Positions 9,529-39,091 of a DNA stretch of 47,453 nucleotides are shown here, one piece after another. Every line of letters starts with the position of its first letter. The first letter of the stretch is position 1. Position numbers and translations under genes: made by a program. Source of the stretch: Kiritimatiellia bacterium. Lineage in GTDB: Bacteria; Verrucomicrobiota; Kiritimatiellia; RFP12; UBA1067. The stretch lies in the NCBI GenBank assembly GCA_017427485.1, contig JAFRSR010000147.1, positions 1 to 47,453 of the forward strand, read 5' to 3'. The notes beneath the pieces were generated by a model that saw only the letters and a list, made by a program, of their open reading frames with translations, was not told where the DNA came from and made no database searches.

Positions 9529-9536
9529 TCGAAAAC

Positions 9537-14297: not shown

Positions 14298-16283
14298 TTA
14301 GGGGGCTGCAAGGGTCCAGGGGAAGAGCGAGATGCGGATCTGGGTGGAGCCGAACGGCACGAGCTCGACGGTCTCGGTGCGTGACACATCGGCGGGCACG
14401 GGGCTCGGCGGCGGGTCGATCGCGCGCGCCGACGCCCCTTCGCGCATGTACCCCCAGCCGCCGAAATCCGTGCGCACGGCCTTCATCCGCAGCGTCACGG
14501 GCGCGTGGCCCGGACAGAACGGATTCCCCTCCAGCGACACGGGCGTGACCTCGCACGCGAACGCGCCGTCCGCGCCGCGCACGAGCGCGTAGCCCCACGG
14601 TGACTGCGGACGCAGCTCGTGGCGCGGATAGCCGTGTTTTCCGCCCTTCTCGATCCACTCGTTCTCGTACGGCACCTTGTAGCGCGCCACTACCGAGTCG
14701 GCGCACGCCATCTTGAGCGAATAGAGGAGCGGGCCGCGCATGACGGCCACCGCGTCGTGGCCCCAGAACGACGCGCGCGCCGCAAGCGGAAACGCGAGCG
14801 TCACCACGTCGCCAGTGCGCCACTCGCGCGCGATGCGGAGGAACGAACCGGGCGTGACGCCCGCCTCGGCCACGCCGTTCACCTTCACCTCGGCGCCTGT
14901 CGCCCACGCGGGGATGCGCAGGGCAAGTGCCTTGCGCCCGGACGCGGCGCGCACCGTGAGCTTCACGTTGCCACCGAAGGGATAGTCGCCGCCCTCCTCG
15001 ATCTCGAAACCGTTCGCCGACACGCGGCAGGGACCATACGCCACGGCGGCGAGCCCGCCGTCCGGCGTGCCCATCCACATCGTCTGGGCGAACTTCGGCC
15101 ACGCGAGGTGGAAGTTCGACCGGCAGCACCCGAAGCCCGCATGCGGTCCGGGACAGATCGCGCCCACCATCTCCTTGCGGTCGCCGTTGTTGGCGAAGAG
15201 GAGCAGCTTGTCCTCGCAGGACGGCTGGTTCAGGAGGCAGTAGTAGCGGATGCCCTTCCCGTCCGGCGCGAGCGTGCCCGGCAGCGCGTTGTAGGCGACG
15301 ATCTCAAGGTCGTCCGCCACGGCGGCGGATCCGAACACGGAGATCACGGACTGGCAGCTCAGGATGCGCTCCGCGATCGCGCAGAGCTCCGTCCCTCCCG
15401 AGGCGCTGCGGTCGGTGAGCGGCTCGGAGCCGTTGACCATGCGGTCGGGACGCCCGCACGTGCGCATCACCCAGCCGTCGGACGCGAACGCGGCCTCGTA
15501 CGCGCCCGCCTTGAGCGGGTCGCCGTCGAGACGCCACTGGAGGGCGGGGGCCTTGAGGCCCTGCATGAAATTGACGATGTGGCAGCGGTAGCCCTGCGGG
15601 AAGGACGGATCGCCGCCGTGACGATAGTATGTCGTCCAGTCCGCGGTCTGGGCCGACACCTCGCGCGCGAAGCCGAGCCATTTGGCGTCGCCCGTCCGCG
15701 CGTGGAGCCAATACACGACGTCCAGCTCGTCGGCGGCGCGTGCCTTCGCCCAGCATGAGTCGTTGCCGATGGAGAACTCCTTGAACGCGACGCGCTGGTA
15801 GTCGAAGTAGCGCGCGAGGAACGGCGCCACGCGCGGATCGCCCGTGGCGTCCGCCCAGTCGCGCAGCAGCCAGAGGGAGATCATGTTCGCCCACCAGTTG
15901 CGCGCCTTGGGGCCGAAGTCGCCGTCGGGCTTCTGCGAGGCGAGGATGCAGTCCACCCACCGCTTCGCCCGCGCCTTGAGCGCCTCGTCGTCGAGCGCGA
16001 ACGCGAGCGAGACGAGTCCCTTCGCGTAGTAGGGGCCGCGTTCCCAGGCGTACTGCTTGCCGCGGTGCGCGCCCGTGAGCCAGTCGCTATTGCCGATGTC
16101 GTCGTACAGTTCCTCGGCGTGGCCCGTAATGCCGTCACGCTGGAGCTCCAGCTGCGTGCGGAGCCAGCCTTCGGGGCGCACCTTCCCCACGGGAAGCACG
16201 TTGAGCGCGCAGGGACGGATATCTGTGGCGGAGCAGGCTGCTACGAGCGCCGCAGCACAAAAAGCAAGAAGGATCTGTTTCAT
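14298..16283 (-). CDS. GH127-type (DUF1680) beta-L-arabinofuranosidase, exported
   Basis: 661 residues from ATG at 16283, which overlaps the secretin stop (ATGA). A signal peptide ends near Ala-Cys-Ser-Ala. The (alpha/alpha)6 barrel is followed by beta-sandwich domains. The family's metal/thiol catalytic site is recognisable: G-T-E-L-C gives Glu299 and Cys301, and G-C-C-R-S-N gives Cys386 and Cys387, matching the Glu-Cys-Cys-Cys zinc site with a cysteine nucleophile known in GH127/GH146. It should release arabinofuranose from side chains of plant polysaccharide or glycoprotein. It lies downstream of the glucuronate genes, which fits a glucuronoarabinoxylan diet. Confidence 0.87.
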   Translation of the reverse strand: MKQILLAFCAAALVAACSATDIRPCALNVLPVGKVRPEGWLRTQLELQRDGITGHAEELYDDIGNSDWLTGAHRGKQYAWERGPYYAKGLVSLAFALDDEALKARAKRWVDCILASQKPDGDFGPKARNWWANMISLWLLRDWADATGDPRVAPFLARYFDYQRVAFKEFSIGNDSCWAKARAADELDVVYWLHARTGDAKWLGFAREVSAQTADWTTYYRHGGDPSFPQGYRCHIVNFMQGLKAPALQWRLDGDPLKAGAYEAAFASDGWVMRTCGRPDRMVNGSEPLTDRSASGGTELCAIAERILSCQSVISVFGSAAVADDLEIVAYNALPGTLAPDGKGIRYYCLLNQPSCEDKLLLFANNGDRKEMVGAICPGPHAGFGCCRSNFHLAWPKFAQTMWMGTPDGGLAAVAYGPCRVSANGFEIEEGGDYPFGGNVKLTVRAASGRKALALRIPAWATGAEVKVNGVAEAGVTPGSFLRIAREWRTGDVVTLAFPLAARASFWGHDAVAVMRGPLLYSLKMACADSVVARYKVPYENEWIEKGGKHGYPRHELRPQSPWGYALVRGADGAFACEVTPVSLEGNPFCPGHAPVTLRMKAVRTDFGGWGYMREGASARAIDPPPSPVPADVSRTETVELVPFGSTQIRISLFPWTLAAP

Positions 16284-17977
16284 TTGGCGTCCTGAGGTTT
16301 GGCGTCCGTGTTCTTGCCGTCCGCACTCCTTGTAAACGGGAGCGGGAACGACACTGTCTCCGCCCGGTTGGTGGCAAGCGGATCCTTCGCCTGCTCCTCA
16401 AGCGAGCGCGTGTCGAGCGAGGCGATACCCTCAATTGCGTTGCCGTGGCGGTCGCCCGGCTCGAATTTCACGCCCTCGGTGTACATGCGGCCCAGCACGG
16501 CGTTCTTGGGCATGCCGATGTCCATGGGCACGCCCTTCGGATCGGCCATGCCCACGGTCACGAACACGAGAATTTCCTTCTGCACCTTCGAGCGGATCTT
16601 GCGTCCGAAGAGTTTGTCGCCGATCCACGGAATGTCGCGCAGGAGGGGAATGCCGGAATCCGTCTGCTCCTCCGTGGTCTTCGAGAGGCCGCCAATCACG
16701 GCCGTCTCGCCCGCCGCGAGCGTAAAGTCCGTCACGAGGCGCTGCACGTCCAGCACCGGGTACTTCGACGAGTACGTGCCGGCGTTGTTGGCCGACGTCG
16801 TGGTGTCGCCCGCGCCGGCGGTCACCCAGTCGGTACAGCTCGAGATGGTGGGGACGATCGACACGTTGATAAGCCCATTGGAGCTCACGCGCGGCGTCAC
16901 CTCCAGCGAAATACCCCAACTGAAGAACGCCTCCTTGGCGAACATGAGCTTCTCCTCGCCCGGAATAACCGCCATGTTCATGCTGAGGTCGAGGGCGTCG
17001 GAACTGCCACTCGTCGTACGCTTGGCGGAAATCTGGACGTTGGGGTACTTCTCCGTCATGTCCACGGTGGCCCTCTTGCCGTTCGCGACGATGATCTTCG
17101 GGTTGGAGAATATGCGCGCGTCGCCGCTGGAGTCAAGCGCGCTTAGGACGAGAGACATGTCGGAGAACTGCAATGTGCCGGAGAAATAGCTGATACCGCC
17201 GTCACGACCACTCGTAATCGAAGTTTCGGACGACGTGCGCGACGACGTGGTAGAGCCATCCGCCAGCGTGTCCTGCGCGGAAGTGACGGTCTTCGTCGCG
17301 GTCTGCCCGGCGATGCCGTAGGAATAGGCGCCCGAGTTTCCAACCCCGCCAGACGTCATCGAGCGCTTGAAGTCCGTCACGGCGTTGCCCACGACCATGC
17401 GGTCCATGCCGCCGCCAAATGAAGCCGTGCCCTTCATCCCGTCGAGCATTGACCAGTCAATGCCGAGTTTGTGCGAGGCCGAGTTCTGAAGCTCCACGAA
17501 GCGTGCCTCGATGTACACCTGCGGGACTTCCACGTCGATATCGCGCATAACCTTCTCGCAGGCATCGAGAATTACGCCGGGCGCGGTCACCATCACCGTA
17601 TTCGCCTCGGGGAACGCCTGCGCGATCTTGTCGATCTTGAAGGCGATGCCGAAATCCCCGCTCCATGTGTTGTTGAACCTCTCGGCCACCTCCTCGGCGT
17701 TCGCATGGTGGAGCTTGAACGTGCGCGTGGAGATGAGGAACTTCTCGTTCCGGCCCGTCCACACGGAGTTGGTGACGACGAGCTGGACGACGTTCGTGAC
17801 GAGGGCGGACTTGGCTGGTGCGGCGTTCGTGGGCGACAGGACGACAGGCAACGCCACGTTTGTGACGCCGCCCGAATCCAGCGTGTCGAGCAACGCCGAC
17901 ACGCCGTCCCGCTGCGGCGAAGCCGCGGCCGCGCAGAGCACGCCGAGCGCAAGGACGAAGATAAGGCGAGATTTCAT
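16280..17977 (-). CDS. Secretin (type II/III secretion or pilus outer-membrane ring protein)
   Basis: 565 residues from ATG at 17977 with a signal peptide (to about residue 20). An N-domain (T-F-K-L-H-H-A-N-A-E-E-V-A-E-R-F) is followed by the secretin core. The core has the characteristic G-I-P-L-L-R-D-I-P-W-I-G and L-F-G signature near the C-terminus. A Ser/Thr-rich stretch of about 60 residues interrupts the core. No other secretion genes are in the window, so the ring's partners must be elsewhere. The upstream extension of the frame to 18253 crosses the promoter and the end of the GH115 gene. Confidence 0.88.
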   Translation of the reverse strand: MKSRLIFVLALGVLCAAAASPQRDGVSALLDTLDSGGVTNVALPVVLSPTNAAPAKSALVTNVVQLVVTNSVWTGRNEKFLISTRTFKLHHANAEEVAERFNNTWSGDFGIAFKIDKIAQAFPEANTVMVTAPGVILDACEKVMRDIDVEVPQVYIEARFVELQNSASHKLGIDWSMLDGMKGTASFGGGMDRMVVGNAVTDFKRSMTSGGVGNSGAYSYGIAGQTATKTVTSAQDTLADGSTTSSRTSSETSITSGRDGGISYFSGTLQFSDMSLVLSALDSSGDARIFSNPKIIVANGKRATVDMTEKYPNVQISAKRTTSGSSDALDLSMNMAVIPGEEKLMFAKEAFFSWGISLEVTPRVSSNGLINVSIVPTISSCTDWVTAGAGDTTTSANNAGTYSSKYPVLDVQRLVTDFTLAAGETAVIGGLSKTTEEQTDSGIPLLRDIPWIGDKLFGRKIRSKVQKEILVFVTVGMADPKGVPMDIGMPKNAVLGRMYTEGVKFEPGDRHGNAIEGIASLDTRSLEEQAKDPLATNRAETVSFPLPFTRSADGKNTDAKPQDAK

Positions 17978-17983
17978 GCGCCC

Positions 17984-17992
17984 ATTATAGCA
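17984..17992 (-). promoter_or_regulatory. Extended -10 box, likely leaderless secretin transcript
   Basis: TGCTATAAT ends six bases before the ATG at 17977, so the mRNA should begin about at the start codon. No strong -35 is present. It separates the secretin-GH127 pair from the upstream glucuronate genes. Confidence 0.5.
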
Positions 17993-18041
17993 TTTACAGG
18001 CGCGCGCCGCGAGAGGAAAATCGGGAAAGTCACAAGGAAAG

Positions 18042-20114
18042 TCACGGTTTGCCGCAGACGCCCAGCGTCTCCTCGACGAGGGCGAGCATCTGCGCGGGCG
18101 ACACCTTCTCGCAGCCGCGGTACCAGTCCGTCCACGGACCATGGCAGTACGCCTTCCCGGCTTCGACGGCGTCCCTGAGCGCGTCGGCGGCGCGGCGCAG
18201 GTGCGCCGCCGCCCCTTTTCGGTCGCCCATGCGGAGCGCCTCGTCGGCGTCAATGACCTGCATCCGCGCCGTCGTGAAATCCAACATCAGACGCGCGGGA
18301 TAGACCACGAAGTCCTCGGCGAACGGACGCTCCGCCGGCGCCGTCCCGGCTAGCGCGCGGCGCGCGAGGCGCAGCGTCTGCTCGAACCCCGCGCGCTGCG
18401 CCGCAAGGCGCATGTAGGTGTCGCGCGGGGAGGCAAAGACGGGCTGGGTGTCCGCAAGCGCCGCGTAGAACGGGTCGGGCGGCGCCGCGCGCGTGAACGC
18501 GTTCGCGAACGGCTCGGGACGCGGACGGCAGGGCTCCTTGCCGTTGAGCAGGCGCTTGAAGTCGTGCAAATCCTTCCGGAGCTGCTGCTGCATGAGCCCG
18601 TCGAGGAAGCAGGGCACGCCCGTGGCGGGCTGGAGCTGGAGCGACTTGTAATGGAGGTTGACGGCGTCCGTCCACGCGGCGGCGTTGGAGCCGAGACGGC
18701 GAGCCACCCACGCACGGGTCCAGGACTCGGGGGCGAACGCGTCGACGTTCCACGTCATCTTCGCCGTCGCGTCGATGCCGTAGACGAACTCGCGCACGTT
18801 GCCCACATTGAAGATCGCGTAGTCGCGCGCGCCCTTCGCACGAGCCTCGCGCAGCATCGCGCACGTGCGCGCGGCGGGGACGAGCGAGACGAGGTGCGGA
18901 CCCATGCCGATGAGCTGGTGGTGGTAGTACACGCCCCGCCGCTCACCGTCGGCGGGCGGCGGCGCGTCGAGGAGGTCGCACTGCCAGCGCCAGCCGCAGT
19001 TGTTGTCGGCGTAGACCACCGTGACCCCGTCGGGGATCTTCAGGAGCCCCTTCGCGTGGAAGTAGGCGCCCTCGCCCCAGAGCGTGGTGGTCACATGGCG
19101 GTTTTCGCGCGGCACGCCGACCTCGTCGAGGATCGCGAGCTGGCGCTCCAGCGCGGCCGTGATGAGCCGCGCGCGCCCCGCGTCGTCCTTCGGCATCGTG
19201 GGGTCGTCCGCCCACATCGGACGGTCCCCCGTGCCCCTGAGGCCGATTTGCCAGACGACGTTCGGGAACTTCGCCCAGCGCGTGGCGAGCGCGCGCCACA
19301 CCTCCTCCACCTCGCGCGGATACTTGAAGTAGGAGTATTCCAGATCGCGCCCGCGCTGCTTCCAGTAGTCCTTGAACGTGTAGCCGGAGACGCCCATCGG
19401 TTCGATGTGGTGCATCGACACGAACACGCCGCGCGCCGCGCAGATCGCCGCGAGGCCCTCCTCGGCGGGACGCGTCGCGTTGAGGAAGCTCGCGGGGATG
19501 ATGAGGTTGTAGCGGCTCCGCACGAGAGCCTCCGCCACGGCCTCCATCGCGCCGTGGTTCACCACGAAATGGTAGTACTTGTACTGGCTGTAGTCGCGCA
19601 CGCCCGAGGCTTCGCGCCACTTCGTGAGCAGGTCCTCGTCGTTGAGGAACCACCCGCGGAAGCGGAAGGAAGGCTCGTCCTGCACGATCTCCACGTCCTT
19701 CCACGCGAGCTCCGCGCGTTTCGGATGCGGCACGCCGCTCCAGAAGTACATCGGATCGACGCCGAGGCAGCGCTCGATGAAGTCGTACACGCCGAACATG
19801 GCGCCACGCGCGTCGCTGCCGACGACCTCCAGCACGCCGTCCCGCACGCGCACGGCGTACGCCTCCCAGCGTCCGTCGGGGCGCACGGCGACGGACACGT
19901 CGCCGGATCGCGCCGGACCGCCGCGCACGAGCGGCACGTCCGCGCCCGTGATCTTCTTCACGTCGTTCGTGAGGTCCTGCGCCGCGCGCCACACGAACCC
20001 GGGCAGGTCGGACGCCACCACCACGCGCGCACGCGCTCCCGGTCCCACAAGCGTGAACGCCTGCACGACAGCACACGCGCATGCGGCAGAGGCACAGAAG
20101 AGGATTCTTTTCAC
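18042..20114 (-). CDS. GH115-like xylan alpha-1,2-glucuronidase, exported
   Basis: 690 residues from ATG at 20114, with AAAGGAGT upstream and a signal peptide to about residue 19. An N-terminal alpha/beta domain of the kind found before GH67/GH115/GH20 barrels is followed by the catalytic part. That part holds M-H-H-I-E-P-M-G, I-G-L-R-G-T-G-D, V-Y-A-D-N-N-C-G-W and G-V-Y-Y-H-H, which match GH115 landmarks. The enzyme removes 4-O-methyl-glucuronate from xylan. It is shorter than many GH115 proteins and lacks an obvious extra C-terminal domain. Its location next to uxaC supports the assignment. Confidence 0.78.
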   Translation of the reverse strand: MKRILFCASAACACAVVQAFTLVGPGARARVVVASDLPGFVWRAAQDLTNDVKKITGADVPLVRGGPARSGDVSVAVRPDGRWEAYAVRVRDGVLEVVGSDARGAMFGVYDFIERCLGVDPMYFWSGVPHPKRAELAWKDVEIVQDEPSFRFRGWFLNDEDLLTKWREASGVRDYSQYKYYHFVVNHGAMEAVAEALVRSRYNLIIPASFLNATRPAEEGLAAICAARGVFVSMHHIEPMGVSGYTFKDYWKQRGRDLEYSYFKYPREVEEVWRALATRWAKFPNVVWQIGLRGTGDRPMWADDPTMPKDDAGRARLITAALERQLAILDEVGVPRENRHVTTTLWGEGAYFHAKGLLKIPDGVTVVYADNNCGWRWQCDLLDAPPPADGERRGVYYHHQLIGMGPHLVSLVPAARTCAMLREARAKGARDYAIFNVGNVREFVYGIDATAKMTWNVDAFAPESWTRAWVARRLGSNAAAWTDAVNLHYKSLQLQPATGVPCFLDGLMQQQLRKDLHDFKRLLNGKEPCRPRPEPFANAFTRAAPPDPFYAALADTQPVFASPRDTYMRLAAQRAGFEQTLRLARRALAGTAPAERPFAEDFVVYPARLMLDFTTARMQVIDADEALRMGDRKGAAAHLRRAADALRDAVEAGKAYCHGPWTDWYRGCEKVSPAQMLALVEETLGVCGKP

Positions 20115-27724: not shown

Positions 27725-30337
27725 TCACCGGAACAGGATCGTAAGACCTTCCCTGACGTAGTGCGCCGAATAGCGCCTGCAGGGAACGCCGTCCACCGTC
27801 ACGTCCTCTTTCACGAGTTTCGCCGCATAGTGCTTGACGCGCACAAAGGCGAAGTTCCCCGTCAAATCGCCGTCCGTCGCAGGCACGGTGCAGATCGGGA
27901 GCGTGACGGCGCCGTCAATGCCCTCGGGCGGCACCGCCAGCTGCACGTTCACCCGGCCGGCCGCGTCTTCGATCGTGACATTCCGGAAGCCATTCGCCGC
28001 CGTCGAATCGGGCGAGAGCACGATGGACGTGCCGTCCGCGAACGTGCAGTCGAGTTCCGCCACCGCCGCGTCGGAAAGCGCCGTCAGGCCGCCCTCGCGC
28101 ACGCGGCACAGGTTGTTCGTCCCGAAGGTCATCTCGCCGCCGAGCGCCAACGTCCCCGCGCCGGTCTTGTACATCGTGTTGTTCTGGTAGATCGGCACCT
28201 TCACCGCGAACGTCACGCCCGTCGGCACGTTGAACCCGTAGGGCCCCGTCCCGCTGATGCCCCTGTTCGCCGTGTCGAACGTGATGTTCGTGGACGGGCA
28301 CATCATGCTGTACTTGTCGAGCGTGATTGCATTCGCCCTGAACGTGCCCGGCGCGCCGCCCAGCGCGGCGGCGGAGTTGAAGCCGAACTGCGTGCCCACG
28401 TACTCGTTCGTCGGCGACCCCTCGTGCGTCACGTAGAGCCTGCCCGTGTAGTCCGAGTTGTCGCCGTAGAGACGCGTCTGGTTCACGCCGTTCTTCAGCG
28501 ACATGCTCCCGACGCTCTCCGCCGTCAACTTCAACGGGCCTTCGCCGTGGAGCGCGCCGCGGAAACTGAGATAGCCACCCTCCTTGTAGCGCGAGTAGAA
28601 CGTCACGAACGGCGCGGCGTCGTCAAACGCGCCGGCGATCGTCCAGTCCCCGTACACGTCGAATGACCGTCCGCCGTAGTTCGGACGGATGATCGTGGGC
28701 GGGTACAACGTCGCTCTCAACAGCGCGACCGTCTCGCGGACATGCAACGTCGTCGTCGAACCGGCGGGGATGCTGATTGTCAGCGAATCGCCGTCGAACT
28801 CGACGTTGCTGAGACTGTTCACCTGGTGGACGAGCAGATAGTCCGCGCCTTCATGGGCGGCCCGATTGTCCGACCACAGTTCGGGTGCGCCGTTGATCTT
28901 GTAGTAATTGTACCCGGAACCTTCCGGCGTGTAGAAAATCTTGATGCTCTTCACCACGGGTCGCGCCGACAGATAGACGTGCTGGACGCCGCCCGCGTCC
29001 TTTTCCACCGTCACCGTCGTCTTGGGCAAGCCGTACGTCTTGGGCGAAACATCCGTGAAATCGTCCGCCGTCACGTCCGCCGCCCCGGCCGCGATGGTCA
29101 GCACCTCCAGGTTCAAGGCGTCGTGCTGCGGCAGGGCGACGGCCTCGGAGAGCGCGATCGGCTGGCCGCCCGCGGGCACGGCATAACCCGCCGTCAGCGC
29201 AACCGGCGTCGTAACCTTTGCCGTGGCGTCGTAGGCCGCCTCCAGCACCACGTTCGCCCCAGCCTCCACCGTGAGCGCAAAGTTCTCCGGCGCCTGACAG
29301 AGCCGAAGCGTGGCGCCGGACTTCACCGTGACTGGATGCGCCGCCGGCAACGTCGCCGTTGCCGCGATCCGCAACGTCCCTTCCTCTACGACGATCGCTC
29401 CCGCCGTGTACGCGCCGCTCAGCGTCACGGTCCCTTCGCCGTCCTTCGTGAAACCGTACGCACCGCTGATCGGCATCGGCAGCTCGTAGTCCGAGCAGTC
29501 CGTGGTCGTGCGGACGGAGGTTCCGGAGGCATTGTGCGTGGCCACGACCGTCGCCCTCAGCCTGACGCCGCTCTTGTTGATGGCGATTCCGCGCACGGCA
29601 TTGGGCGTGACGCCCTTCAGTGCCGTGACGACCGCGTTTGCGAGATCGACGCTCAGGGCGTCTGCGCGAGGCGCAGACGGATTTCCGAGGGCGTTCGCCG
29701 ACCCGATGACGAACGGCGCGGGGGTGATCTGGCAGGAAATCTTGCCGTCGTAGCCGGAATTGTCACCTCTGAAAATCACGAGGTTGTCGGTGGCCATCTT
29801 GGAGGAGCTGATGATGGTCAGGGCCATGGTCGTGTCATCGCAAATGAACGAACAGGCAAAATCCAGGATGATGCCGGTTGCACCGGCGTTCGGTTCGATC
29901 CGATGGTTCTCGCTCGGGCAGTCGAGGTGGAAGTTGCCGTAGACGGGCGTCGTCACGCCGCCGTAGTTCTGGTAGATTCTCCCCGCGTGCCAGCGCACGT
30001 CGTTCGCGGTGAACTTCACATTTCGCAAATGGAGCGTGCCGGTCTGCGAGCCGTCAGCCGAGCCGAGATGCAGCGTCTTGCCGGGGAACACCGTCTCGTT
30101 GTAGACGCCGATGCCCCATCCCCTGTCCACCCAGAACACGTCCTCCGATGCGCTGACCTGTCCGTAGACCGGCGCCACGCCCACCGAGTTCGTCCAGTAG
30201 CTGCCGATGTTGGCAGACGTAAACGGGGATATGGTGTTGGCGTTCCGTGACAGATAGTACGTCTCGGCCCGCGCCGCAATTGCACCCAATGCGACCGCCG
30301 CCATCAAGACAGTCTTTGCAATCGTCTTTTTGTCCAT
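27725..30337 (-). CDS. Large exported beta-strand-repeat (autotransporter-associated type) protein with C-terminal tail
   Basis: 870 residues from ATG at 30337, with AAGGA upstream and a signal peptide cleaved near Ala-Arg-Ala. The protein is Gly/Thr/Val-rich with repeated short beta-strand motifs such as G-A-Y-G-F-T-K-D-G-E-G-T-V-T-L-S-G, typical of autotransporter-associated beta-strand repeats. No 12-strand autotransporter barrel is seen at the C-terminus. It ends in a beta domain closing with R-E-G-L-T-I-L-F-R. The gene follows ATPase copy 1 by 26 bases. A surface or matrix role is likely; no enzymatic motif was found. Confidence 0.72.
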   Translation of the reverse strand: MDKKTIAKTVLMAAVALGAIAARAETYYLSRNANTISPFTSANIGSYWTNSVGVAPVYGQVSASEDVFWVDRGWGIGVYNETVFPGKTLHLGSADGSQTGTLHLRNVKFTANDVRWHAGRIYQNYGGVTTPVYGNFHLDCPSENHRIEPNAGATGIILDFACSFICDDTTMALTIISSSKMATDNLVIFRGDNSGYDGKISCQITPAPFVIGSANALGNPSAPRADALSVDLANAVVTALKGVTPNAVRGIAINKSGVRLRATVVATHNASGTSVRTTTDCSDYELPMPISGAYGFTKDGEGTVTLSGAYTAGAIVVEEGTLRIAATATLPAAHPVTVKSGATLRLCQAPENFALTVEAGANVVLEAAYDATAKVTTPVALTAGYAVPAGGQPIALSEAVALPQHDALNLEVLTIAAGAADVTADDFTDVSPKTYGLPKTTVTVEKDAGGVQHVYLSARPVVKSIKIFYTPEGSGYNYYKINGAPELWSDNRAAHEGADYLLVHQVNSLSNVEFDGDSLTISIPAGSTTTLHVRETVALLRATLYPPTIIRPNYGGRSFDVYGDWTIAGAFDDAAPFVTFYSRYKEGGYLSFRGALHGEGPLKLTAESVGSMSLKNGVNQTRLYGDNSDYTGRLYVTHEGSPTNEYVGTQFGFNSAAALGGAPGTFRANAITLDKYSMMCPSTNITFDTANRGISGTGPYGFNVPTGVTFAVKVPIYQNNTMYKTGAGTLALGGEMTFGTNNLCRVREGGLTALSDAAVAELDCTFADGTSIVLSPDSTAANGFRNVTIEDAAGRVNVQLAVPPEGIDGAVTLPICTVPATDGDLTGNFAFVRVKHYAAKLVKEDVTVDGVPCRRYSAHYVREGLTILFR

Positions 30338-30363
30338 AGTATTTTCCTTTTCATGACATCTCA

Positions 30364-31956
30364 TCATGCCGGCTCGACGAGCGGGTCGTCGATGCCGCGC
30401 TTGGCGGGATCGTAGTTCACGCCCACGTAGAAGACGGGCAGAGAGGAATCGAGCCACGGGCCGGCGTACTCCTTGCCGCGCGCCTGGTCGAGCGCCTCCC
30501 GAGGGGTCTTGCCGTACTTGAACTCGAACACGTACACGCCGCCCTTGTCCGCCAGCACGGCGTCCGCGCGCCCGCGCGCGCTCTGCCGCTCGCCGGAGAT
30601 GTCCGCGCCAATCAGCTTCATGAACAGGAGGAAGTACCGTTTCGCCTCCCTCTCGCACTCGATCTTCCACTCGTGCGGCACGGCCGCGAACACAGCCTTG
30701 AGGTTCTTCGTGAGGAGCGCCTCCACGCCCTTGGCGCGAAGCCCCTCGCGCGCCTCGACGAGCTGCTCGGTCCAGTCGGACAAGCCGGCGTCGAGGAGCG
30801 ACGAGACGTACCCTTCGGCGAGGGAGTTTGCGATCTCCTTGTTGGGGATGCCGAGACGGAACGCGTTTTCGTCGATGACCTCAGAGATCGTCAGATATCC
30901 CCCCTGGTAGAGCAAGGCGGGGAGCGGCATCGTCTCGGCGGCGCACACGTCCAGCTGCGTCCGCGTGGCCGCCAGGCCGTTCAGGTCGGCGGGGATCTCG
31001 TCCGCGGCCTTGAGGCGGTTCACGATGATCGTCGCCTGCCCCGTCGACTCCCAGTAGTTGGCGAGCCTGCCGGACTTCAGGGCATTGCCGAGCGAGACGG
31101 GGTTGCAGACCTTCTCTTCCGAGTCGGGCGAGAACCGGTAGCCGTCGTACCACGAAAGCAGAGTCTTCTTCGCCGCCGCGAAATCCATCTTGTTCTTCGC
31201 CGCGAACGCCTCCACGTTCTCGCGCAGCGGACCGTCCAGCTCAGCCGGCGTGTAGCCGAGGAGCGTGGCGTAATCGGGCGACATCGAGACATCCGTCAGG
31301 TGGTTGAGTCCGGAGAAGATCGAGAGCTTCGTCAGTTTCGTGACGCCCGTCATCAGAAGAAACCGTATCCCCCCGGAATTGATCTTCAGCTTCTCGTAGA
31401 AGTCGTGCAGAACCGACCGCACCTTCTTCAGCGTCTGAAGGTCGTCGAGGAACTTGGCGACCGGCTCGTCGTACTCGTCGATCAGCACGACGATCTGTCC
31501 AGTCGGCGATTTCTTGATTGCGGCCTTGAGGAAATCTTCGAACTGTCCCGAAACGGGCCCCGTCCCGTCGTATGGGACGCCCGCCTGCGCGCAGAGTCCC
31601 TTGACAAGTTTCGCCAAACTCTCAATGAACAGTTCGTATGTCTCGCCAACGGCGCTGGCCATCGTGAAGCTGTAGACCGGGTACGGCGTCTCCCATCCTT
31701 CCCACGGGAGAGAGTCGATGGCAAGTCCTTTGAACAGCTCACGGCGTCCCTCGAACATCGCCTGCAACGTGGAGAGCATGAGCGACTTGCCGAACCGGCG
31801 CGGACGCGAGATGAACAGCTGCGCGTCAACCTTCGGCGATGCGAGCTGGTACAGCAGGCCTGTTTTGTCCACATACTTCCCCTCTCCCCCGAGTATCAGG
31901 CTCGGGAAGTCATACGTTCCGGTGGTGGGGAACTTGATCTTCTTTTCCTCTTCCAT
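30364..31956 (-). CDS. AAA-ATPase-like/PD-(D/E)XK nuclease protein (DUF1703), copy 1
   Basis: 530 residues from ATG at 31956. The N-terminal AAA-ATPase-like domain (PF09820 type) has R-P-R-R-F-G-K-S (51-58) as its nucleotide-binding loop and L-I-D-E-Y-D-E-P (158-165) as Walker B. The C-terminal DUF1703 domain has G-R-A-D (Asp465) and E-F-K (Glu478, Lys480), an intact PD-(D/E)XK pattern. These proteins are numerous in gut bacteria; their biological role is not established. A paralog of exactly the same length lies at 37441-39033. A good ribosome site sits about 13 bases upstream, farther than usual. Confidence 0.87.
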   Translation of the reverse strand: MEEEKKIKFPTTGTYDFPSLILGGEGKYVDKTGLLYQLASPKVDAQLFISRPRRFGKSLMLSTLQAMFEGRRELFKGLAIDSLPWEGWETPYPVYSFTMASAVGETYELFIESLAKLVKGLCAQAGVPYDGTGPVSGQFEDFLKAAIKKSPTGQIVVLIDEYDEPVAKFLDDLQTLKKVRSVLHDFYEKLKINSGGIRFLLMTGVTKLTKLSIFSGLNHLTDVSMSPDYATLLGYTPAELDGPLRENVEAFAAKNKMDFAAAKKTLLSWYDGYRFSPDSEEKVCNPVSLGNALKSGRLANYWESTGQATIIVNRLKAADEIPADLNGLAATRTQLDVCAAETMPLPALLYQGGYLTISEVIDENAFRLGIPNKEIANSLAEGYVSSLLDAGLSDWTEQLVEAREGLRAKGVEALLTKNLKAVFAAVPHEWKIECEREAKRYFLLFMKLIGADISGERQSARGRADAVLADKGGVYVFEFKYGKTPREALDQARGKEYAGPWLDSSLPVFYVGVNYDPAKRGIDDPLVEPA

Positions 31957-31985
31957 GAAAGCGCCGTTGTCTCCTTGCAGCGCAA

Positions 31986-32014
31986 AGTATAGCAAAACAA
32001 GCCGCTCCCCGCAA
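31986..32014 (-). promoter_or_regulatory. Promoter of ATPase copy 1
   Basis: Minus strand TTGCGG (32009-32014), 17-base spacer and extended -10 TGC-TATACT (31986-31991 for the hexamer). The same arrangement precedes copy 2. Confidence 0.6.
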
Positions 32015-32043
32015 ACGCCTGGCGTGGATTCCAAACGGCCCCC

Positions 32044-32060
32044 GCCGCCTGGAAGGCGGC
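32044..32060. repeat. Short GC-rich hairpin
   Basis: GCCGCCT and AGGCGGC with a three-base loop, between the small tail protein gene and ATPase copy 1. It could act as a weak terminator for the small gene, but there is no U-tract on the minus strand; a REP-like element is an alternative. Confidence 0.5.
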
Positions 32061-32081
32061 TTTCTCAGTTAGGCGTCCGTG

Positions 32082-32501
32082 CTAGCGGATGAGAATCTGC
32101 GTGCCGTGGGAATAGAAAAGCCGCAACGTGTTGCCGGCCTTCACCACATTCCACAGCCGGGGATGCTCGGTTCCTTCGAACCCGTCGAGGCCGGCGACGG
32201 TTCCGTCGATGCCGCCGGCGGCGCTCAGCAAGACGCAGGTCTTTTGCGGGAAGGAGTCGTCCACGTCCGTCACGGCCACCCGCGCGTTCGCGCCGAGCGT
32301 CAGGCGGCCCGTGAGCGTGAGCGTGCCGTTCGTCACCGTGCCGTACGAGGCGAACGTGTTCGCCTCCGTCTCGGTTTCGTCCGCCGCGACGGTGTACGTC
32401 AGGACGCCGTTGTCGAACAAGGGCGCGCCGAACGCCGCCGCCGTGCCCGCCAGAACCAGCAAAACAATCAGGTTCTTCCTCTGTACTCCTTTTCGGCCCA
32501 T
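32082..32501 (-). CDS. Small exported protein consisting of signal peptide plus tail domain
   Basis: 139 residues from ATG at 32501; GTG starts at 32510 or 32519 are possible because a GGAGG lies further upstream. A signal peptide (N-L-I-V-L-L-V-L-A-G-T-A-A-A-F-G-A) is followed by about 110 residues of beta-rich sequence. It closes with L-R-L-F-Y-S-H-G-T-Q-I-L-I-R, the same C-terminal tail as the two large exported proteins nearby. It has its own promoter. It may be a reduced relative of the large proteins or an independent carrier of the C-terminal signal. Confidence 0.6.
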   Translation of the reverse strand: MGRKGVQRKNLIVLLVLAGTAAAFGAPLFDNGVLTYTVAADETETEANTFASYGTVTNGTLTLTGRLTLGANARVAVTDVDDSFPQKTCVLLSAAGGIDGTVAGLDGFEGTEHPRLWNVVKAGNTLRLFYSHGTQILIR

Positions 32502-32552
32502 ATCGACCACGCGGCACACAGACCTCCGTTGCCTACAATTGTACGTGCGGAC

Positions 32553-32561
32553 ATTGTACCA
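32553..32561 (-). promoter_or_regulatory. Extended -10 box of the small tail protein gene
   Basis: TGGTACAAT on the minus strand. The leader downstream contains the palindrome GTACAATTGTA and GGAGG. Confidence 0.5.
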
Positions 32562-32600
32562 AATCCCCCTTCATTCCCGGAACCCATGACCGTCCGTTTT

Positions 32601-34682
32601 TCATTTGACCGTGTTCGGAGCTGGCGCAATCACGACGAACACCGCGCAGTCGCTTTTCGTCCCAGAATAGAGCGCGATGAGGTGGCGGTCCCCGCAGACC
32701 GTCGCCTTCACGTTCCCCGCGTCATAGGAACGCGCCTCGCCGCCCTCGGCCAGCACATCCGGCTCCGGCCACGACTCGGGACGGTCGAAGATGAACGCCG
32801 CGTCGGCGACGCGCCGCTTGAGTTTTTTCGCGCCGCGCTGGTAGTAGTAGTTCGAGACGAGTCGCGTCTTCGGGTCGAAGATGAGGCTCGGCGTCGACTC
32901 GCGCACGTCCGTGATGTTCGTCTTCCGGCGCCTCCAGGTGGCCCCGTTGTCGGTCGAGGTGATCTGGAATTGGGCCCCGGTGCCTTCGGAACGCGCGAGG
33001 ACGAGGATGCGTCCGCCGCCGAGACTGACGGCGGACAGCTCCGTGGGCCAGTCGCGCTTGGCGAGGTTCTCCTCCACCGTCCGCTGCGTCCACGTGTGCC
33101 CGTTGTCCGTGCTCACGAGCAGGCCCCAGGAATGGCCGGATTCGGGATTCTTGTAGTTTCCCGCGAACCAAGGTGACGCCAGCCCCTTCCCGGGAATCCG
33201 GAACACGTCCATCACCTGGATGGGCATCGGCGAAAGGAATTTCGCCGGCAGCGATGCGATCTTCTCGAATGTCACGCCGTCCGTTGTGCGGTACAGGTCG
33301 TGCCCGCCGCGCGCGCCGAAGCGCCCCACCCAGAACAGCAGCGCGCCGTTCTCGTCCACGCCGCGTCCCTCGACGGCGTCGCCGATGGCTGGGTCGCCGA
33401 CGATGCACGTCTCGGGCCCCCATGTCCGGCCGCCGTCCAACGACATGCGCGCATACGTGTCGCGCTTCCCCTCGTGGGTCGTGTGCGCGGAACCCCTGCT
33501 GTACGCGCAGACCACCCGGCCCCCCGCCGCCTGGATCATCGGCCACGAGTTGTATCCGGGCGGCGCCTGCACGGTCACGACCTGCGCGTTCCCGCACGGC
33601 ACCATCCGCACGCCTTCCGTGCCGCTTGGATCGTAGGTGTAGAGTTTGGAAGGGTCTGTGTGCACGGAAAGCCCGTCGCCGTCGGTCGTCACGACGACGT
33701 CGCCGTGGATGTTGGTCGTGTACGTCTCAATCCCCGCCTGTGAGAACGTGCGCTGCGACGCCTTCCCCGACGCAATCATCCACGGCACGTTGCCGATCGA
33801 GCCGATGGCTATCTTTGGACGCGGATTCATGGCCAGCACGTCGCCGCCGTTGCGCGGATTGCCGTGTCCGGGCAGCACAAGGACGTCGCAGTTCCACTGG
33901 TTCCGCTTTTCCAGATACGGACGCATGTAGTCCGTGATGTATTGTTCCTGGATGTCGCCCGCGATGAAGAACGTGCGTTTCCCCACGGTGACCCTCAGGC
34001 CGGTGGAGTTGGCGTTGAGGAGATGGTGGAACGGGAAATCCGTCGCGGAACTCCTGCGGAAATGCGCGAGCGGCCCCACAGGCCCCTCCTTGGGCGGCCA
34101 CACGACCTCGAACTTCACCCCCGGCTCGTCCCACCCAAGATCCGTGGATGAATTGGTGTTCGTCACGAGCATGCCCGGATGGGCCTTCTCCCAGGCGGCG
34201 AGCGCGTCCTTGGCGCGTGTCAGCTCGACGGCATCGTGCTCCCGGAGAGGCTTGCCGTCTGTCGGCACGAACGAGTTGTCGAAGACCTTTCGTATGGGGA
34301 AATGGTCGTGCATCCACAGGAAGCCGCCGAAGTGGTCGGCGTGGTAATGGGAAATGATGAGCCCGTCGATCGCCTTGACGCCGTGGGCCTTGAGCCACGG
34401 GACGACGATGTCCTTGCCGTTGTTCTTCACCTTGTCCGTGTGCGGGCAGCCGTTGGCGGTATCCCACAGGTAGCACTTGCCGCCCGGCGTCAGCATCACG
34501 ACGCACTGCCCGGCGCCGCCCGCCATGCAGTCGGGGTTCAGCACCGCAAACGTGAACGCCCGCCCCTTCTCCGACGACTCGGCCGCGCCAATCCGCAAAG
34601 CCGCCGTTGCGCCCAACAACGCCGCGCCGCCTCCCACGAAATCTCTTCGGGAAACCTTCTTCTGACTTGACGGAGTGCTCAT
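32601..34682 (-). CDS. Tat-exported fusion of metallo-beta-lactamase fold and sialidase-like (BNR) domain
   Basis: 693 residues from ATG at 34682. A twin-arginine signal (S-R-R-D-F-V-G-G) precedes a metallo-beta-lactamase-fold domain of about 300 residues. That domain has S-H-Y-H-A-D-H (His112, His114, Asp116, His117) and later G-H-G-N, resembling ComEC-type hydrolases. The second half has sialidase/BNR Asp-box repeats: S-L-D-G-G-R-T-W, S-T-D-N-G-H-T-W and S-T-D-N-G-A-T-W, consistent with a beta-propeller. The arginine triad of true sialidases is not obvious. The combined protein may hydrolyse an ester or phosphodiester on a glycan, but that is inference. Confidence 0.75.
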   Translation of the reverse strand: MSTPSSQKKVSRRDFVGGGAALLGATAALRIGAAESSEKGRAFTFAVLNPDCMAGGAGQCVVMLTPGGKCYLWDTANGCPHTDKVKNNGKDIVVPWLKAHGVKAIDGLIISHYHADHFGGFLWMHDHFPIRKVFDNSFVPTDGKPLREHDAVELTRAKDALAAWEKAHPGMLVTNTNSSTDLGWDEPGVKFEVVWPPKEGPVGPLAHFRRSSATDFPFHHLLNANSTGLRVTVGKRTFFIAGDIQEQYITDYMRPYLEKRNQWNCDVLVLPGHGNPRNGGDVLAMNPRPKIAIGSIGNVPWMIASGKASQRTFSQAGIETYTTNIHGDVVVTTDGDGLSVHTDPSKLYTYDPSGTEGVRMVPCGNAQVVTVQAPPGYNSWPMIQAAGGRVVCAYSRGSAHTTHEGKRDTYARMSLDGGRTWGPETCIVGDPAIGDAVEGRGVDENGALLFWVGRFGARGGHDLYRTTDGVTFEKIASLPAKFLSPMPIQVMDVFRIPGKGLASPWFAGNYKNPESGHSWGLLVSTDNGHTWTQRTVEENLAKRDWPTELSAVSLGGGRILVLARSEGTGAQFQITSTDNGATWRRRKTNITDVRESTPSLIFDPKTRLVSNYYYQRGAKKLKRRVADAAFIFDRPESWPEPDVLAEGGEARSYDAGNVKATVCGDRHLIALYSGTKSDCAVFVVIAPAPNTVK

Positions 34683-34710
34683 ATTAGTTCTTTGCCGAAT
34701 TGAGCACGCT

Positions 34711-37398
34711 TCAGCGGAAGATCACGCATGTTCCGCCGTTGGCGACGTCAAGCCACACGCCGCCGTCGCGCACGTCCAGACGGGCCTTGAGGCTGAAGTC
34801 TTCCAAGCCGGAAACCGCCCACGACTCCTTCGAGAAGTCGCCTGAAACCGACATCACGTCAAACAACTTGAAACTCCGGCCCGACAGCCCGTGCGGATCG
34901 GCAACCGTGAGGTTCACCGTTCCGCCGCCCAACGCCACCAGGCCGTCCGCCGACAGCGTGGCGAACCCGTTCGCCGCGTTCCTCGACACATTCACCGCCG
35001 CGCCGGCCGGAAGCGTCAACACCCCTTCCATCCGCGATGCGCCCGCGAACGACAGGTTCGTTACGCACACCTGCGTATACGGCATCTCAAGCGCCGTCCC
35101 GTCCGCGAGCGTCACGGAGTCGAACCCGAGCACATTGTCATTCCCGAACCACTTCGCGCCCAGGGCCCCCGCCACCGCCTTGCGGAAAGGCGCCGTGAGA
35201 CGCCGCCGGAACACCACGATCTCGCTGAAGCACACACCCCCGTAGACACCAGCCTTCGCCGTTGGAGAGTAGCCACCTGCGTCTGTGCTATTGAAGGCCA
35301 CCGTCTTGTTCGTCACGCGCGAGTTCACGTTTCCGCCGATGTTGACGAGTTCCGCGCCTGCCGGCCAATTCAATTGCTGATCCAGCAAATGCCATCCGGC
35401 AGGAACCATGTACTTCTTCCAATCCCGCGCCTCTCCATCAATGAACAGGCTACCGGACATGCGCGTGGGCGCATCGTAATAGTGCATCGGGTATCCCTTT
35501 CCGTCACCGCCGAGGCCGCGGAACCAATAGTAGTTGTTGCCGATGAGCGACGGCCCGATCGTCGGATACGGTGCGCTCGACAACGCGGAAGTCTCGTCCC
35601 GGTCTTTCCAGACCGCCATGATGTTCACCAGCCCCGGCGCGCCCAGCGAGCCCGAGGACAGCGGTGCCGTCAGCGCCAACCTGGCCCCGTTGCCCTCTGG
35701 ATGGTCGCCAGTTGTATACGCGCCGAAGTCAACGGCCTTGCCGCCACGCGGTCCTTCATCCGTAACGTAGGCGTGCCCGACCATGCGCGTCGAGTCAAAC
35801 GAATACGTCGTCACGCCGTTCGTGGCGGCGGCCACGTTCCGTCCGTTCGCGTCGTTCCAGCGCAAGACGAAATTCGTGCCGTTCAACGCCTCTGTTTGCA
35901 GACGATCCGCGCACGAGGCGTCAAGGCGAAGATACACGCCCGGCGCCTCCAGCGGCGCGATGCGCAACGTGCCGGACTGAACGTCCACCTTGTTCAGCGC
36001 GCCCTCAAGCGTTCCCACCAGCACGGTGCCCGCGCCAGTCTTCGTGAACGTGCCGGCACCCTCCACGCGCGAGATCGCGCCCGTCGTCCCGGCCGCCGCC
36101 GAAAGGCCCGCCGCCCCGGAGAAGGCCAGATTCCATGTCGCGCCCGCCGACCGGTCCGCCAACGACGCCGTGTTGCCGGAAACCGGGCGGCAACCGCTGC
36201 CCGCATCCACGAAACTAGGCATGACGACATTGTCCCAGTCCGTCACCGTTCCGATGCAGGCGTCGAAATTGTTCACCTTCACACGGCACGCCGACGTGTC
36301 GAAGGTCGCACCCGGCGCAAGAGTCACGATGTTGACCGTTGTGCCGAGCCATCGCGCCAACATGTACCGTTGCACGCGCAGACGCCGCGCAGTCGTGAAA
36401 TACTTCTCGCTGATGATGAACTCGCCCAGCTTGAATCCGCCATAGCTGCCGCTCGCGGTGTTGAAGCCGAAACCGAGCGCGCACGATGCCGGATATCGCT
36501 CTTCGCTCGTCCACTGGTAGAACACATGCGGCCCGTCCGGGACGCGATAGAACCGCTGTGGGTTGCCGGGTTGAATCGAACCGTCCAGATAGTTGTTGCC
36601 ATGCAGGCGCCCCATCAGGCTCTCAGGATGGATCGATGCCGTCAAGCCATTCCCGCACAGGTCACGCGACAGGACGCCGCTCAGCACGGTTGAACTTGCA
36701 TTCGCCACGCCGAAAATGCAAGGACCCCGATAGCTCCCCGTATGGTTCTTCGCGCCGGGGTCGTCCTCCCACGCAAAGAAGTATTCGCAGATGTTCGTCC
36801 GCCCGACGGATTCCGCCGCCCTCTCCCAGAGCATGGCCGCGCCGTAACCACTACCGCCGGCGTTCTGCAACGTGCCGAAATCGACTACGGGAAGTCCGTT
36901 GATGCCGTCTGCCGAGACAAAAGGCTTCGGACGCGTCGAGTGCGGAACAGCCTTCAGATGCGTCTTCCCATCCGCATCGCGCCACTCCGCCACGAAGTTC
37001 GTGCCGTTGAGTTCAGTGAATGTCATTGAATCGGACATCGTCGCGTCCGCGTGATAGGTCACCTGCTCGTCGTCCGCGAAACTCATCCGTTGCGGACGGA
37101 CGACTGCGAACGTGCCGTTCGAAACGGCGACATGCACCTTCTCGCTGCCAAAGATGGCGACTTCCAGCCGTCCCGCGCCGAGCTTGGTCAGCTGGTACTG
37201 GGTGCTGGTCCCGTAGAGATATTCGATGTGAAGCGTATCTCCGGCCGCCACGGTCACGTTCGTGTCGGACGAGATGTAGAACTCGTCCTGGACGGTCGTC
37301 GCGCCATTCGCGCCCCACCACGCGACCGACGAGAAGAAGAGGCAGCCCCAAAGGCGCACCCGTCCATGCAGATGTTCACAGTGCCATTTCCTAGCCAT
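34711..37398 (-). CDS. Large exported protein with two LamG-like modules and C-terminal tail
   Basis: 895 residues from ATG at 37398; AAAGG lies ten bases upstream, and an ATG at 37407 is too close to it. A signal peptide ends near Gly-Ala-Asn-Gly-Ala. Two concanavalin/LamG-like modules of about 270 residues each open with L-N-G-T-N-F-V-x-(E/R)-W-(R/N)-D-A-(D/N)-G, at about residues 130 and 510. Between them is a beta-strand-repeat segment (G-A-G-T-F-T-K-T-G-A-G-T-V-L-V-G). It ends V-W-L-D-V-A-N-G-G-T-C-V-I-F-R. It follows ATPase copy 2. A cell-surface role, possibly carbohydrate binding, is inferred. Confidence 0.75.
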   Translation of the reverse strand: MARKWHCEHLHGRVRLWGCLFFSSVAWWGANGATTVQDEFYISSDTNVTVAAGDTLHIEYLYGTSTQYQLTKLGAGRLEVAIFGSEKVHVAVSNGTFAVVRPQRMSFADDEQVTYHADATMSDSMTFTELNGTNFVAEWRDADGKTHLKAVPHSTRPKPFVSADGINGLPVVDFGTLQNAGGSGYGAAMLWERAAESVGRTNICEYFFAWEDDPGAKNHTGSYRGPCIFGVANASSTVLSGVLSRDLCGNGLTASIHPESLMGRLHGNNYLDGSIQPGNPQRFYRVPDGPHVFYQWTSEERYPASCALGFGFNTASGSYGGFKLGEFIISEKYFTTARRLRVQRYMLARWLGTTVNIVTLAPGATFDTSACRVKVNNFDACIGTVTDWDNVVMPSFVDAGSGCRPVSGNTASLADRSAGATWNLAFSGAAGLSAAAGTTGAISRVEGAGTFTKTGAGTVLVGTLEGALNKVDVQSGTLRIAPLEAPGVYLRLDASCADRLQTEALNGTNFVLRWNDANGRNVAAATNGVTTYSFDSTRMVGHAYVTDEGPRGGKAVDFGAYTTGDHPEGNGARLALTAPLSSGSLGAPGLVNIMAVWKDRDETSALSSAPYPTIGPSLIGNNYYWFRGLGGDGKGYPMHYYDAPTRMSGSLFIDGEARDWKKYMVPAGWHLLDQQLNWPAGAELVNIGGNVNSRVTNKTVAFNSTDAGGYSPTAKAGVYGGVCFSEIVVFRRRLTAPFRKAVAGALGAKWFGNDNVLGFDSVTLADGTALEMPYTQVCVTNLSFAGASRMEGVLTLPAGAAVNVSRNAANGFATLSADGLVALGGGTVNLTVADPHGLSGRSFKLFDVMSVSGDFSKESWAVSGLEDFSLKARLDVRDGGVWLDVANGGTCVIFR

Positions 37399-37440: not shown

Positions 37441-39033
37441 TCATGCCGGTTCTGTCAGCGGATCGTCGATGCCGCGCTTGGAGGGATCGTAGTTGACGCC
37501 CACGTAGAACACCGGCGGATCGCCGTCGAGCCACGGGCCGGCGTAGTCCTTGCCGCGCGCCTGGTCGAGCGCCTCACGAGGGGTCTTGCCGTACTTGAAC
37601 TCGAACACGTACACGCCGCTCTTGTCCTTCAGGATCGCGTCCGCGCGCCCGCGCGCGCTTTGCCGCTCGCCGGAGATATCCGCGCCGATCAGCTTCATGA
37701 ACAGAAGGAAGTATCGTTTAGCCTCTTTCTCGCTCTCGATATTCCACTCGTGCGGCACGGCGGCGAACGCTGCCTTGAGGTTCTTCCGTAGCAGCGTCTC
37801 GACGCCCTTTTCGATCAAATCGTCCTGCGCATCCGCCAACTCATCGCCCCAGTCGGCCATGCCGTTGCGCAGAAGCGAGGATACGTAGCCCTTTGTCAGG
37901 GAACTTGCAATCTCCTCGTTCGGAATGCCGAGGTCGAGCCGTCCGGACGGACGTACGCGCTTGATGGTGAGATACCCGCCTTGGTAGAGAAGCGCGGCAA
38001 TCGGCATCGTCTCCGCGTCGCACACGTCGAGGTCCAGGGGATCCACGGCCATGCCGTTGAGGTCGGCCGGGATTTCGTCCGCAGCCTTGATGCGGTTGAC
38101 GATCATCGTCGAACGCCCGGTCGCCTCCCAGTAGTTGGCGAGGTCGCCGGTCTTCAGCGCATTGCCGAGCGAGACGGGGTTGCAGACCTTCTTTTCCGAA
38201 TCAGGCGAGAATCTGTAGCCGTCGTACCAGGAGAGAAGCGCTTTCTTCGCGGCAACGAAATCCATTTTGTTCTTCGCTGCAAACACCTCCACGTTCTCGC
38301 GCAACGGTCCGTCTAGCTCGTCCGGCGTGTAGCCGAGGAGCGTGGCATAATCGGGCGACATCGAGACGTCCGTCAGGTGGTTGAGTCCGGAAAAGATCGA
38401 GAGTTTCGTCAGCTTCGTGACACCCGTCATCAGAAGAAAACGTATTCCCCCGGAGTTGATCTTCAGCTTCTCGTAGAAATCGTGCAGAACCGACCGCACC
38501 TTCTTCAGCGTCTCAAAGTCGTCGAGGAACTTGGCGACCGGCTCGTCGTACTCGTCGATCAGCACGACGATCTGCCCAGTCGGCGATTTCTTGATTGCGG
38601 CCTTGAGGAAATCTTCGAACTGCCCCGAAACGGGACCTGTCCCGTCGTATGGTACGTCCGCCTGCGCACAGAGTTCCTTGACAAGTTTCGCCAAACGTTC
38701 AATGAACAGTTCGTATGTCTCGCCAACGGCACTGGCCATCGTGAAGTTGTAGACCGGGTACGGCGTCTCCCACCCTTCCCAAGGCAGCGAGTCGAGGGCG
38801 AATCCCTTGAACAGCTCACGACGTCCCTCGAACATCGCCTGCAGAGTGGAGAGCATGAGCGACTTGCCGAACCGGCGCGGACGCGAGATGAAGAGCTGTG
38901 CGTCGGCCTTCGGCGATGCGAGCTGGTACAGCAGGTCTGTCTTGTCCACATACTTCCCCTCGCCCCCGAGTATCAGGTTCGGGAAGTCATACGTCCCGGT
39001 GGTGGGAAACTTGATCTTCTTTTCCTCTTCCAT
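37441..39033 (-). CDS. AAA-ATPase-like/PD-(D/E)XK nuclease protein (DUF1703), copy 2
   Basis: 530 residues from ATG at 39033, the same length as copy 1, with the ATPase and nuclease motifs at the same positions. By eye the two proteins are roughly 87% identical; most differences fall in residues about 300-416, between the ATPase part and the nuclease part. DNA similarity extends upstream through the promoter to 39097 and stops at the stop codon. It is followed, after 42 bases, by a large exported beta-strand protein, as copy 1 is. Confidence 0.87.
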   Translation of the reverse strand: MEEEKKIKFPTTGTYDFPNLILGGEGKYVDKTDLLYQLASPKADAQLFISRPRRFGKSLMLSTLQAMFEGRRELFKGFALDSLPWEGWETPYPVYNFTMASAVGETYELFIERLAKLVKELCAQADVPYDGTGPVSGQFEDFLKAAIKKSPTGQIVVLIDEYDEPVAKFLDDFETLKKVRSVLHDFYEKLKINSGGIRFLLMTGVTKLTKLSIFSGLNHLTDVSMSPDYATLLGYTPDELDGPLRENVEVFAAKNKMDFVAAKKALLSWYDGYRFSPDSEKKVCNPVSLGNALKTGDLANYWEATGRSTMIVNRIKAADEIPADLNGMAVDPLDLDVCDAETMPIAALLYQGGYLTIKRVRPSGRLDLGIPNEEIASSLTKGYVSSLLRNGMADWGDELADAQDDLIEKGVETLLRKNLKAAFAAVPHEWNIESEKEAKRYFLLFMKLIGADISGERQSARGRADAILKDKSGVYVFEFKYGKTPREALDQARGKDYAGPWLDGDPPVFYVGVNYDPSKRGIDDPLTEPA

Positions 39034-39062
39034 GAAAGCACCGATGCCTCCTTGAGGTCTAA

Positions 39063-39091
39063 AGTATAGCAAAACACGCCGCGAACCGCAA
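39063..39091 (-). promoter_or_regulatory. Promoter of ATPase copy 2
   Basis: Minus strand TTGCGG (39086-39091), 17-base spacer and TATACT (39063-39068) with the TGC extension, matching the copy 1 promoter in sequence and spacing. Confidence 0.6.

Follow-up and report, generated by a model that had tools for sequence, protein, structure and literature searches.

Three exported proteins encoded on the minus strand of the window (the whole 47,453-nucleotide stretch of DNA that was analysed) end in similar residues, raising the question of what this C-terminal tail is. The first is a PATR/beta-strand-repeat protein of 870 aa (27725..30337; PATR PF12951, E 4.4e-6; TIGR02601, E 9.8e-7) that ends in EGLTILFR, the last seven residues (GLTILFR, 27728..27748) carrying a Leu variant at position -6 and being followed by TGA. 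The second, of 139 aa (32082..32501), consists of a signal peptide, a beta-rich C-terminal domain and the tail, with little else, and ends in HGTQILIR (GTQILIR at 32085..32105, then TAG). The third is a large protein (34711..37398) that ends in GGTCVIFR (GTCVIFR at 34714..34734, then TGA); it gave no match in Pfam and NCBIfam scans, and a scan of the named genomes returned no relatives. Translation starts at 30337, 32501 and 37398 open the Sec signal peptides MDKKTIAKTVLMAAVALGAIAARA (30266..30337) and MGRKGVQRKNLIVLLVLAGTAAAFGA (32424..32501), whose cleavage sites were placed by eye and are inferred, and a probable, weaker one, MARKWHCEHLHGRVRLWGCLFFSSVAWWGANGA (37300..37398). The tails and the export of the three proteins were thus as the first-pass annotation had described them, and GH2, GH127, GH115 and other exported enzymes of the window indeed lacked the tail. 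Structures predicted without an alignment had a mean pLDDT of 35 for the protein at 32082-32501 and of 32 for the last 252 residues of that at 34711, values too low to be informative, and a comparison of two tailed proteins with solved structures yielded no match. The tagged genes at 32-37 kb are flanked by near-identical ORFs (30364-32034 and 37441-39072, minus strand), which by eye are of AAA-ATPase-like plus PD-(D/E)XK nuclease type and possibly represent a repeated or mobile gene. Between two of the tagged genes lies an ORF (32601-34682, minus strand) whose product joins a metallo-beta-lactamase-fold domain to a BNR repeat domain and bears a TAT-like signal.

The host is an uncultured member of Kiritimatiellia, kin to genomes from ruminant and horse guts, and its genome (G000) is a fragmented MAG of 6.3 Mb in 446 contigs, 90% complete with 7% contamination. 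A strict DNA pattern, G-T-x-[IVM]-hydrophobic-hydrophobic-R-stop, to which the tails at 32082 and 34711 conform, matched this genome 57 times as compared with 0 times for the reversed control, a frequency far beyond chance. Gene statistics were taken from about 675 kb fetched around the matches, mostly contigs chosen for carrying a strict tag, with genes called by a home-made codon-score caller. In the 208,801 residues of called genes, the motif was terminal 54 times and internal twice. The 54 terminal copies, in 54 genes, were spelled by 53 distinct 21-mers, which shows that selection acts on the peptide and not on a DNA element. The information content of the carrier tails in the fetched loci fell from 2.9 bits at -7 to about 0.3 at -8; the values from -7 to -4 are inflated, as the fetching pattern fixes these positions, while the drop at -8 is unaffected. 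G at -7 also persists in most of the tails that lie in these loci but were not picked by the pattern. The conserved unit is the last seven residues only, conservation stopping at -7, and the first-pass view of a domain plus tail as one conserved unit was not upheld. These residues form a beta-strand-like stretch in fixed register (G-T-x-hydrophobic-x-hydrophobic-polar/basic) that ends at the free carboxylate. Tags missed by the strict pattern include GLTILFR, GMTILFR, GTVFLVR, GTVFMVR, GTTFIVR, SLTILMR and others, and their addition brought the sample to 69 carriers. At one site (G000:C215:2007-2030, seen in L021 and L099), GTNIIFR lies within 18 residues of an in-frame Met (MNSRIAIMATVGTNIIFR), perhaps a deleted-gene remnant joining a start to a tag.

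In line with the first-pass expectation of enrichment among exported proteins, a lenient predictor run as a simple script called signal peptides in 45 of 50 carriers, as compared with 145 of 280 other genes on the same contigs (Fisher p 1e-7). Of the five carriers without a called signal peptide, two are fragments and the other three do have one, located either at the called start or shortly before it, so that essentially all full-length carriers begin with a signal peptide. On these contigs, the majority of exported enzymes are without the tag.

The first-pass annotation had placed a similar domain of 60-75 residues before the tails. Single-linkage clustering of the 120 residues upstream of the tag placed 30 of the 69 carriers in one cluster, and the other 39 fell into 29 clusters, laminin-G and choice-of-anchor-Q proteins included. 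An HMM of the large cluster, built from 29 other carriers, matched the proteins at 32082 (E 4.6e-9) and 34711 (E 1.2e-5), and that at 27725 was borderline (E 0.0095). The similar domain therefore exists, but this beta-rich C-terminal domain is common to under half of the carriers and is no prerequisite for the tag; the clustering ruled out a shared homologous domain as the whole explanation. The same tag also closes laminin-G, choice-of-anchor-Q, lyase-like and Ig-like proteins, which indicates a short add-on. Pfam and NCBIfam scans of 49 carriers detected PATR in 7 and TIGR02601 in 10, and the modules found in carriers further included laminin G, Chlamydia PMP repeats, DUF2341, a PL4 CBM-like module, beta-helix and T5SS/PEP-CTERM-associated repeats. 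The 'choice-of-anchor' names of NCBI denote domains that precede differing C-terminal anchors. In proteins from five families, a choice-of-anchor-Q domain (most assignments being above the family cut-off and two just below) is followed a few residues on by the tag, as in DMGCYEYVTR-GTMFIIR, DIGAYESPPPA-GTLILIR and DLGCYECWLPET-GTMIMFR. The shortest carriers, of 82 aa (L032:9188-9436) and 109 aa (L047:6536-6865), hold little beyond a signal peptide and the tag.

To identify the lineage, we used the BamA sequence of the host, which is 95% identical to that of the goat-omasum MAG RGIG2632 and 84-93% identical to those of RUG572, RUG14821, RUG10619 and other rumen and other MAGs. Across 388 genomes of the phylum, high counts of the strict pattern were confined to the class Kiritimatiellia (G000 57, G333 31, G260 21, G110 15, G327 11, G196 10 and G231 9). 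A looser pattern gave 85 matches against 8 in the reversed control for G260, 55/5 for G000, 48/7 for G333, 34/2 for G101, 24/1 for G231 and 20/3 for G110, and stayed at control level in families f2, f7, f8 and f11 and in nearly all other classes. Outside the class, loose counts above control were seen in G329 (family f42, 16/2) and G149 (family f56, 10/1); two stretches of G329 contained no clear tag. Among named genomes, strict tags numbered 36 in RUG10884, 32 in RUG11483, 31 in RUG572, 23 in SRR1222429_bin.139, 17 each in RGIG2632 and Horse_feces187, and 12 in UBA3624.

RUG14821, RUG10619 and CAMKJU yielded only 0, 1 and 1 strict tags, respectively, despite BamA sequences 92-93% identical to that of the host, genomes of 4.7-6.1 Mb and 32-37 PATR matches each. 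Their proteins end instead in GMYVIVR, GIMVLVR, GMTLIVR, GMTIIVR, GLMIMVR, GLMIIVK, GFMMIVK or GMMLIVK, so that species with BamA about 92% identical use the dialect G[MLF]xIIV[RK] and the host uses GTxIIFR. Retention of the domain with a switched tag is seen in homologous pairs, such as KTLKFGPVRGTKILLR of the host and KTLKFGPHRGIMVLVR of RUG10619, which are 62% identical over 160 residues. T at -6 was found in 53 of 63 host tails as compared with 0 of 11 tails of the other dialect (Fisher p 8e-8), a value that is overstated because T was part of the pattern by which the host loci were chosen; the unbiased evidence for dialects is the genome-wide count, 57 versus 0-1 in genomes of similar size. 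In another genus (G101), where loci were chosen by PATR and not by the tag, the dialect is GTL[IM]xL[KQ], with T at -6 in 17 of 17 tails. Further dialects are GT[LM]xx[LI][LNKF] in G210, GTMFIIR in G166, GTIFxxx in G124 and GTxVFFR in G196; the stretches fetched for G260, G110, G196, G231, G166, G124 and G139 were likewise partly chosen by tag. The final Arg, regarded at first as a fixed feature, belongs to the host dialect, relatives having K, Q, N, L or F. As judged from these sequences, the tag spans several families of the class, in dialects, rather than being peculiar to one lineage as first supposed, and the dialect shifts together across unrelated folds.

Pfam and NCBIfam scans found no curated family that covers the tag, and hence none in which the final Arg is left unconserved, and the literature searched contained no account of a tag of this kind from Kiritimatiellia. 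In agreement with the first-pass remark that known tails do not match, the tag fits none of the signals tested, namely PEP-CTERM, the T9SS CTD, the autotransporter barrel and chaperone-usher. The closest known system in logic is the type A CTD of the T9SS of Bacteroidota (motif C-t), which likewise pairs a Sec signal peptide with a C-terminal signal and a terminal strand. The last beta-strand of this CTD, with its conserved Lys, matters for secretion, and RgpB lacking its last two residues is trapped in the periplasm (PMC11285876). However, the T9SS signal belongs to a CTD with an Ig-like fold, whereas here unrelated folds are followed by a seven-residue tag, and the NCBIfam and Pfam scans detected no Por_Secre_tail/CTD in the 49 carriers. 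A search for SprA gave no match in 20 genomes, a weak negative in that no control genome gave one either. C25 domains, the type found in the sortase-like PorU, were present in 11 of 25 genomes, were absent from the tag-bearing G196, G136 and G357, and were present in one genome with tags at background level; C25 could be a partner of the tag in some families only. Beside a C25 peptidase, one gene each in G231 (L124:3258-4118) and G327 (L125:3258-4112) ends in GTKFLIR, which is tag-like and lies outside the strict pattern.

The PEP-CTERM/exosortase system resembles the present case in that its C-terminal sorting signal is likewise found on many exported proteins rich in repeats, and carriers do hold T5SS/PEP-CTERM-associated repeats. 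Unlike PEP-CTERM, however, the tag lacks a PEP motif, a transmembrane stretch and a basic cluster, and none of 68 tagged proteins showed a hydrophobic stretch with a basic end. Only one clearly PEP-CTERM-like protein was found among the sampled genes, as compared with the 68 tagged ones. This host protein (L049:7073-7738, plus strand) ends in APLPGALAVMLVGGIGSLCAKKKRN; together with the exosortase gene, which was present in 25 of 25 genomes, it suggests that two systems for C-terminal sorting may operate side by side in the class. The terminal strand of pilus subunits has alternating hydrophobic residues in a register fixed to the carboxylate, and in this respect the tag recalls pilus-subunit C-termini and their PapD-like chaperones. 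The carriers, however, are large non-pilin proteins, and the outer-membrane usher PF00577 was found in 0 of 19 genomes, with a positive E. coli control. Among the candidate partners considered (SprA, C25, secretin, exosortase, Omp85 and usher), none tracks the tag.

Could the seven residues merely form the final beta-strand of a C-terminal domain that the carriers share, kept by descent and folding with no receptor involved? The large cluster of 30 of 69 carriers and the HMM matches of the proteins at 32082 and 34711 speak for this reading, but it is unlikely, since the remaining 39 carriers are spread over 29 clusters, the tag follows the domain end in laminin-G and choice-of-anchor-Q proteins, conservation starts abruptly at -7, and unrelated folds change dialect together. 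Quite improbable is that BamA reads the tag as a variant BAM beta-signal, the carriers being outer-membrane proteins or engaging BAM. The G-x-x-hydrophobic-x-hydrophobic core does resemble that of the short terminal beta-signal strand, some G210 tags end in F, and BamA is the sole Omp85 in most tag-bearing genomes (a single one in G000, G333, G260, G101, G210, G231, G327, G166, G124, G363 and G139). A second, weak Omp85 match occurred in G196 and G110 only, among the tag-bearing genomes checked, and a two-partner or TamA-type Omp85 route was rejected, as a second Omp85 is missing from most of them. In contrast to the beta-signal, the tag bears an extra terminal R, K or Q, with R in the genome of the window. 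BamA itself ends in FSFx[IV]G[YR][DE]F, with no added residue, in about 48 relatives (FSFxIGYDF in this lineage), and its canonical F end indicates that the tag is not the ordinary BAM beta-signal of the lineage; its C-termini (DF or EF, as against R for the host tag) rule out a simple identity of the two. Moreover, carriers of 82-139 aa are too short for a classical barrel, and the Pfam scan of 49 carriers detected no barrel family, the autotransporter beta-barrel PF03797 included, though passenger repeats are present.

Type II secretion, with the tag singling out folded proteins in the periplasm for export, is also a very unlikely explanation. Secretins were found in 25 of 25 genomes, with 3 to 9 matches each, but they are equally present in tag-poor genomes and so, like exosortase, do not discriminate these from tag-bearing ones; the tag is missing from most of the enzymes that this same genome exports, and we know of no linear signal defined for the T2SS. 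The window itself encodes a secretin (16280-18253, minus strand; PF00263, E 2.2e-29) between the GH127 and GH115 genes of a sugar-degradation cluster, with no other T2SS genes recognised beside it. On L096, about 6 kb separate a tagged gene (9055-10698) from a GspK-like gene and neighbouring type II secretion-type genes (L096:44-2651, plus strand), which were assigned by eye. PDZ domains and C-terminal-processing proteases bind short hydrophobic C-terminal peptides at a fixed distance to the carboxylate, and a periplasmic protease or PDZ chaperone might on such general grounds read the exposed strand as a degron or retention signal for quality control. We regard this as the least probable reading, since it would be wasteful to place a permanent degron on more than 60 large proteins of surface type.

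Taken together, the last seven residues probably serve as a C-terminal tag for targeting or anchoring, and a putative receptor in the envelope would read this tag and drift along with it. A short carboxylate-fixed peptide that occurs on unrelated folds and changes in all of them together looks like a receptor-read tag. The sorting, assembly or anchoring signal proposed by the first-pass annotation thus stands as the best reading of strictly C-terminal tags on signal-peptide proteins with unrelated domains and concerted drift, and the function and the reading machinery are proposed here. What was read directly from the sequences is the tag itself, where it sits, which proteins carry it and how its dialects differ; we infer the receptor, as well as the timing and the destination of delivery. 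The beta-strand character of the tag suggests binding by strand addition, and the surface-type repeat and lectin-like nature of the carriers makes outer-membrane translocation or surface anchoring the likeliest purpose. The putative envelope receptor, for which a translocation or anchoring factor of the outer membrane is the likeliest candidate, would bind the terminal strand by strand addition together with its carboxylate, and would then move the tagged protein across the outer membrane or hold it at the surface. Receptor and tag would drift together, giving each genus its own dialect. Against a targeting tag we counted that nearly half of the carriers share a C-terminal domain, and part of the tag conservation could be structural for this reason. 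The carriers and dialects suggest a previously undescribed address label for delivery to, or holding at, the cell surface. More tentatively, and with some doubt, we suggest an undescribed outer-membrane export or anchoring pathway of Kiritimatiellia, in which the substrates would carry only a free seven-residue C-terminal strand, and the receptor and dozens of substrates per genome would coevolve to give genus-level dialects.

Should the tag prove to be a sorting signal, sequence alone would suffice to predict the surface proteome in this little-studied class of gut bacteria. The concrete question is then which receptor reads the tag, and the dialects offer an unusually good handle on this, since the binding site of the receptor should change where close relatives differ in having GTxIIFR or GMxIIVR. 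A transferable tag of seven residues would be a compact signal for surface display, and would demonstrate that secretion can be signalled from the C-terminus by something other than a folded domain or a membrane anchor.
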